From assembly GCA_012520355.1 (NCBI GenBank), contig JAAYOK010000177.1:1-44407 (forward strand): 44,407 nt of DNA. The letters run 5' to 3'. The DNA is from Bacillota bacterium (GTDB taxonomy: Bacteria; Bacillota; Limnochordia; Darwinibacteriales; Darwinibacteriaceae). This document shows, in pieces, positions 552 to 1,376 of the stretch (position 1 is the stretch's first letter; every line of letters starts with the position of its first letter). The translations under genes were made by a program, and so were the position numbers. The notes beneath the pieces are model-generated. The model searched no databases. It was not told the origin of the DNA and was given only the letters and a program-made list of their open reading frames with translations.

Positions 552-1079
552 ATGACACCGGAAGTTGAAGAACTATACCAAGCAGCATTGGCACAATTAG
601 ACGCCTGGGAGATGGAAAACGCAGAAGAAAGTCTCCGCAAGGTAATTGAACTGGATCCTGAGCACGCCCGTGCCTTCAATAAACTCGGCGTAATCTTTGC
701 CCGGCGCGGTGATTTGCGGCAGGCAGAAGACTGTTTTACCAAAGCCATAACCCTTGATGATCAGCTTGCATCGGCCCATTCCAACCTAGGAAACATCTAT
801 GCTGAACACGGTTGGAGTGATCGGGCCCAGACGGCCTATGAACGTGCCTTAGCCCTTGATCCGCAAAATCCAACAGCCCTGCACAACCTGGGGGTCTTGT
901 ACAGAAAAGGTGGGGATATAGGTCGCGGCATTGATTTGATGAAGCAAGCCACGCGATCAGAGCGAACAAGGTTTCGGGATGAGGCACGAAGGGATCCCAA
1001 GAGTAGACGAACGATCCGCACAGGCTTAGCAATCCTGATCGTCATCATAGTTGTCCTTTATTTCCTGTTTAACCGGTAG
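552..1079 (+). CDS. TPR-repeat protein with C-terminal transmembrane anchor
   Basis: Several TPR motifs (AFNKLGVIFARRGDLRQAEDCFTKAITLD, AHSNLGNIYAEHGWSDRAQTAYERALALDP) and terminal TM (LAILIVIIVVLYFLF). Confidence 0.85.
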   Translation: MTPEVEELYQAALAQLDAWEMENAEESLRKVIELDPEHARAFNKLGVIFARRGDLRQAEDCFTKAITLDDQLASAHSNLGNIYAEHGWSDRAQTAYERALALDPQNPTALHNLGVLYRKGGDIGRGIDLMKQATRSERTRFRDEARRDPKSRRTIRTGLAILIVIIVVLYFLFNR

Positions 1080-1123
1080 GTATCCACAAAGTTATCCACA
1101 GAGGCTGTGGATACTGTGTATAA
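1080..1123. promoter_or_regulatory. DnaA-box cluster (4 boxes in convergent orientation)
   Basis: GTATCCACA 1080-1088(+), TTATCCACA 1092-1100(+), TGTGGATAC 1106-1114(-), TGTGTATAA 1115-1123(-; TTATACACA). Confidence 0.7.
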
Positions 1124-1158
1124 ATCCTGGGGAAAACTCAATTCAGCGTCCTTTTCGG

Positions 1159-1187
1159 CGCCAAATGATAATCATTGTCTTTTGGCG
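1159..1187. promoter_or_regulatory. 29-bp imperfect palindrome with Fur-box-like core
   Basis: CGCCAAATGATAAT-C-ATTGTCTTTTGGCG, 12/14 paired positions; 1161-1179 matches the classical Fur box at 15/19. Confidence 0.5.
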
Positions 1188-1376
1188 AGCTTTGAGAATG
1201 GGATCCATAATCCTTTTCACTAAGAACATAACGGTTTTCCCCCTTAGAAACTGAAATCATTGTTCAATATTATATCCAAATAAGAAGAATCTGTGACAGA
1301 AGGAAACTGGTTTCCAGTGGAGAAAGAGGTAATGTTAAAGGGGTAGAAATGCAAAGAAAGGAAAGGAGATGGACAA

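Follow-up and report, generated by a model that had tools for sequence, protein, structure and literature searches.

A compact and conserved cluster of predicted DnaA boxes close to oriC in a family of Bacillota without YabA

What could four tightly packed DnaA boxes do between the ends of two genes, on a contig that does not carry dnaA? The question is raised by positions 1,080 to 1,123 of the window, as we call the whole stretch of 44,407 nucleotides from a Bacillota genome that was analysed. Scoring mismatches against the DnaA consensus TTATNCACA, we found the following predicted sites within these 44 bp:

1080-1088, plus strand: DnaA box 1 (GTATCCACA, one mismatch), starting at the first base after the stop codon of a TPR gene; read on the minus strand, it is the counterpart of box III of the DARS core discussed below
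1092-1100, plus strand: DnaA box 2 (TTATCCACA, exact)
1106-1114, minus strand: DnaA box 3 (GTATCCACA, one mismatch), opposing box 2 over a 5-bp spacer, 14 bp from start to start
1115-1123, minus strand: DnaA box 4 (TTATACACA, exact), directly abutting box 3

The coordinates and the composition given in the original prediction, two exact boxes and two with a single mismatch, were verified. Box matches with at most one mismatch were mildly enriched in the window as a whole (41 vs 27.5 ± 4.9 in dinucleotide shuffles), and four such boxes within 44 bp appeared in just one of 3000 windows simulated with a first-order Markov model. This confirms that the 44-bp cluster of four predicted DnaA sites is real.

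To place the cluster in its genome, we scanned all 333 contigs of the 2.56-Mb assembly, of which the window is one, and counted 83 exact boxes compared to 38 for the reversed control. The dnaA gene, said to be outside the window, was located on another contig (C68) of this fragmented assembly. Here, about ten exact boxes lie between rnpA and dnaA-dnaN-recF-gyrB-gyrA, gene names that we assigned from the sequence, which is the arrangement of an ordinary oriC. This oriC uses TTATCCACA, the same letters as box 2 of the cluster. Among the matches listed for the genome, pairs of exact boxes within 100 bp were found only at oriC and in the window cluster, and the nearly complete genome of a relative (G001) likewise had such pairs only at these two places. 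The density scan that had been suggested as a check thus singled out the cluster as the sole tight pair of exact boxes beyond oriC.

Since the contigs of the window's genome are not joined, the distance of its cluster to oriC is inferred by synteny. A clear dnaA was present in 22 of the 23 family genomes (the remaining one, G011, gave a weak match only), and in all ten genomes with both features on one contig the cluster is 11.6 to 13.9 kb away from dnaA, on the rnpA-parAB side. An origin-proximal location, which the original prediction had derived from the neighbouring genes, therefore holds in every informative relative and, by synteny, for the window. In one relative in which the intervening genes were read, they occur in the typical order rnpA, yidC, jag, mnmE, mnmG, rsmG, noc, parA and parB; these names, too, are our own assignments from the sequence. 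No other cluster of this kind was found between gcvT and the oriC region in the family. The same part of the chromosome harbors parS-like TGTTCCACGTGGAACA sites, which were generally seen at about -9 kb, or at about -11 kb in the case of G001, G010 and G017, and at about 9 to 14 kb from dnaA in all genomes of the order that were checked except G054 (loci L164-L181, including G001, G005 and G017). In most genomes of the class with both genes on one contig (e.g. G063, G070 and G027), gcvT is about 12 to 30 kb away from dnaA, so that the gcv operon forms a block linked to the origin across a broad range of relatives.

To follow the cluster through relatives, we extracted the gcvT locus from the 23 family genomes, most of them MAGs (e.g. 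Bacillota/'Firmicutes' UBA5493, UBA5420 and UBA3914), oriented and aligned the loci and calculated box identities over 22 genomes. The cluster was recognisable in 22 of the 23 genomes, spanning nine genera, and in every case adjoined the end of the TPR gene. A lack of conservation in relatives had been named in advance as a result that would refute the proposed role of the boxes, and the opposite was observed: the mean identity of the boxes was 0.91-0.94, compared to 0.59-0.65 for the spacers, 0.52 for the 3' flank and 0.50 for the third codon positions of the TPR gene. Box 1 is the weakest of the four with a mean identity of 91 % and variable first bases. Box 2 reaches 94 % over the 22 genomes, reading TTGTCCACA in six genomes (g3) and TTATCAACA in six others (g2, g5, g6 and g9). 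The first seven bases of box 3 (TGTGGAT) are invariant in 22/22 genomes and its last base varies. Position 5 of box 4 is T, C or A in 7, 12 and 3 genomes, respectively, and the remaining eight positions are invariant or identical in 21/22. This variable base corresponds to the N position of TTATNCACA, so that the variation of box 4 is essentially confined to the degenerate position of the consensus, which points to DnaA and argues against a hairpin. Between boxes 2 and 3, the spacer varies in sequence but keeps its length of 5 bp, except for 6 bp in two genomes. Outside the family, genomes from two further families (G042/G043 and G046) of the order have a modified cluster at the same place. 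It is absent, with intact synteny, from the family genome G012 and from several relatives in the order, which indicates that the cluster is non-essential across the lineage.

The cluster had been described as lying upstream of the glycine cleavage operon. It is indeed near gcvT, but this description turned out to be misleading, as the cluster sits in a convergent 3'-3' arrangement of two genes, one of which had not been listed before:

552-1079, plus strand: gene for a TPR-repeat protein that ends in a hydrophobic C-terminal segment; the gene reads towards the cluster, and its synteny is maintained throughout the family
1143-1229, minus strand: small 28-codon ORF (MFLVKRIMDPILKARQKTMIIIWRRKGR), reading towards the cluster from the opposite side
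1269-1297, minus strand: promoter-like site of the small ORF (GTCACA, 17 nt, TATAAT), a consensus match only

The stop codon of the TPR gene occupies positions 1077-1079, with the cluster starting at the next base, and the stop codon of the small ORF is about 20 bp away from the cluster, which therefore fills much of the 63-bp gap separating the two stop codons. In G012, the genome without the cluster, this gap is only 4 bp long, indicating that the cluster can be lost as a unit from between the gene ends and does not belong to a promoter. Because the small ORF intervenes, the link between the cluster and the gcv operon is positional only. The small ORF was present in all 23 family genomes and also in several other families of the order, with products of about 27 to 31 amino acids that read roughly M-x-LLK-x-x-x-DPILKAR-x-KTMILIWRRKRR and are cationic (...DPILKAR.KTMILIWRRKR...). 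Its coding status is supported by the lower conservation of third codon positions (0.57 vs 0.85 at positions 1-2), and a purine-rich stretch resembling a ribosome-binding site precedes it; no Pfam or NCBIfam model matched the product. GTGACAG and TATAAT-like blocks were kept in the family alignment. Between the small ORF and gcvT, a strongly conserved block (GTGACAGAAGGAAAC...GGAGAA, window positions 1283-1345) had no match in Rfam and may represent the -35 region of the small ORF and/or a leader element of the gcv operon. Two further candidates in this region were rejected: a Fur-box-like TGATAATCATT downstream of the cluster proved to be coding sequence of the small ORF, and the search for a riboswitch upstream of gcvT yielded no Rfam family at the gathering score and only eukaryotic chance matches under relaxed settings.

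Based on its position and conservation, we interpret the locus as a non-origin DnaA-box cluster in the vicinity of oriC, similar in kind to those of B. subtilis and to datA, that would tune initiation through DnaA binding, a reading to which we assign a probability of about 0.6. The near letter-for-letter conservation across the family indicates that it is probably a control site restraining or tuning the start of replication. According to this model, DnaA would bind the four boxes, and the site would be copied within seconds of initiation. The duplicated site could then divert DnaA from oriC or sequester it in a specific nucleoprotein complex. The lowered supply at oriC would help to avoid premature re-initiation, in line with reports on the oriC-proximal clusters of B. 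subtilis and the cluster of S. coelicolor. As four boxes among about 80 exact ones in the genome make simple titration by counting weak, a cooperative or architecture-dependent complex is to be expected instead of a mere passive sponge, and the conserved spacing between the boxes suggests that such a complex would be ordered. The DnaA protein of the window's genome retains R399, R407, D433 and H434 (E. coli numbering), which are residues of box recognition. YabA is one of the main brakes on DnaA in B. subtilis. The corresponding model (PF06156) found no match in any of the 23 family genomes, with a control search that was positive in B. subtilis and L. lactis, and a family without YabA would presumably benefit from another brake.

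Clusters of this kind are known from several bacteria. E. coli datA, which limits initiation, spans hundreds of bp on the oriC side of the chromosome. It is non-coding, and its DnaA boxes promote ATP hydrolysis together with an IHF site, as datA requires IHF. The window cluster is likewise non-coding and on the oriC side, but it is compact and palindromic, a layout that the boxes of datA do not share. Close parallels are the oriC-proximal clusters of B. subtilis, also non-origin DnaA-box clusters in a Bacillota, for which a limitation of free DnaA has been proposed (Okumura et al. 2012, as described in PMC5295017, PMC5010248 and PMC13220808). Deletion of six such clusters caused early initiation (PMC5295017), and their function dropped when they were transferred from the vicinity of oriC to the terminus (PMC5010248). 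The strong DnaA-binding regions outside oriC contain 4 to 11 sites each in this organism, and one of them is located between the convergent 3' ends of gcp and ydiF, like the window cluster between its two genes (PMC4447404). In contrast to B. subtilis with its six clusters, the family of the window has just one, at an unrelated locus, which is 44 bp long and holds four boxes in a fixed geometry, and YabA is missing. For S. coelicolor, too, a DnaA-box cluster located away from oriC has been described that suppresses untimely initiation (Smulczyk-Krawczyszyn et al. 2006, as cited in PMC5742627); it belongs to another phylum and another locus, and the likeness is one of description. The window cluster thus joins these known cases, and its layout is unusually compact and constrained. 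As a single, deeply conserved short site next to oriC, it makes a clean system for studying how re-initiation is limited in Bacillota that lack YabA.

Three other explanations were weighed against a role in tuning initiation. DnaA is a known transcription factor, and with a cluster that begins at the TPR stop codon and ends about 20 bp from that of the small ORF, bound DnaA could regulate the TPR gene, the small ORF or the gcv operon, or act as a roadblock for the convergent transcripts. We consider this rather unlikely, because the cluster is located at the 3' ends of both genes and outside any promoter, the promoter-like sites are closer to the starts of the small ORF and gcvT (60 to 180 bp from the cluster), and synteny survives without the cluster in G012, with its 4-bp stop gap, and in the g14 genomes. 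It is far less probable that the conserved element is an RNA hairpin or terminator between the convergent genes (TATCCACAG-AGG-CTGTGGATA), the alternative that the original prediction had kept in reserve. The inner boxes do fold into a perfect 9-bp stem in the window, but the features of an intrinsic terminator, a GC-rich stem with T-run and compensatory changes, were not found: no T-run follows the stem and a terminator scan made no call. Furthermore, box 2 changes from C to A in six genomes and from A to G in six others, in each case with no compensating change in box 3, the final base of box 3 differs between genomes without compensation as well, boxes 1 and 4 beyond the stem are about equally conserved, and the z-score of the fold is only -1.8. 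Least credible of all is a relocated or secondary replication origin, for which DnaA boxes near origin-linked genes might speak. A standard oriC with about ten exact boxes adjoins dnaA in the same genome, and relatives share this arrangement. The hallmarks of an oriC, which are adjacency to dnaA/dnaN, many boxes and an AT-rich unwinding element, belong to the locus between rnpA and dnaA and not to the cluster, whose four boxes in 44 bp between coding ends leave no evident room for unwinding. Of the functions originally proposed, the origin can be dropped, and a titrating or regulatory role is the simplest interpretation of a conserved box cluster that is close to oriC but outside of it.

A further possibility concerns the nucleotide state of DnaA. 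Read on the minus strand, boxes 3, 2 and 1 could form a three-box core at which ADP-DnaA oligomerises and releases ADP, so that ATP-DnaA is regenerated and initiation promoted. In E. coli, box trios with offsets of 14 and 12 are located in the bioD-uvrB (813107+, 813121-, 813133-) and rppH-mutH (2969135+, 2969149-, 2969161-) intergenic regions, and we take these to be the cores of DARS1 and DARS2, as they match the description of these sites. In both, box I is opposite to boxes II and III and the spacing is identical (PMC5742627). The window core showed the same orientations and the same 14/12 offsets, and 24 of its 35 positions are identical to DARS1, which is exactly the identity between DARS1 and DARS2. 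Within the class, the 14/12 pattern matched 16 genomes, in 15 of them at the cluster locus, compared to none for the reversed control, and DnaA retains D269, L290 and R285. Despite this agreement, such a mechanism appears unlikely. The second offset drifts to 11 in g2, g5, g6 and other families, and box layouts of this type are scattered over the phylum (14/11 in 39 and exactly 14/12 in 31 of 398 genomes). The 14/11 layout also occurs in oriC regions of other Bacillota, 1 to 2 kb upstream of dnaA: 12 of 20 stretches around such sites contain dnaA, with the site within about 2 kb upstream. Due to similar layouts inside Bacillota origins, the match to DARS is suggestive only and the layout is not diagnostic. 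Moreover, DARS1 requires a flanking region and DARS2 requires IHF and Fis, whereas in the alignment only the coding ends and box 4 were conserved next to the core, with no recognisable regulatory flank. An extra box that abuts box I also distinguishes the cluster from the E. coli cores. Finally, relocation of E. coli DARS1 to the vicinity of oriC raises the origin concentration, and this would be an unexpected place for an activator. We therefore regard it as doubtful that the locus is a DnaA-reactivating site, built from a DARS1/2 core with a fourth box, in a Bacillota lineage without YabA. If true, control of the DnaA nucleotide state by DNA sites would extend beyond proteobacteria. The layout may simply represent favourable packing of DnaA, and because it equals that of the E. 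coli core, the cluster would sharply test whether nucleotide exchange follows from the layout alone or whether the layout merely packs DnaA well.

Compact clusters were also observed elsewhere in the survey. In family f105, the genomes G360 and G267 each contain two compact clusters with the 14/11 layout (L228 at 5483 and 16846, L229 at 10001 and L230 at 2636). No dnaA was present within the DNA fetched around them, and it is possible that they represent independent clusters outside oriC.
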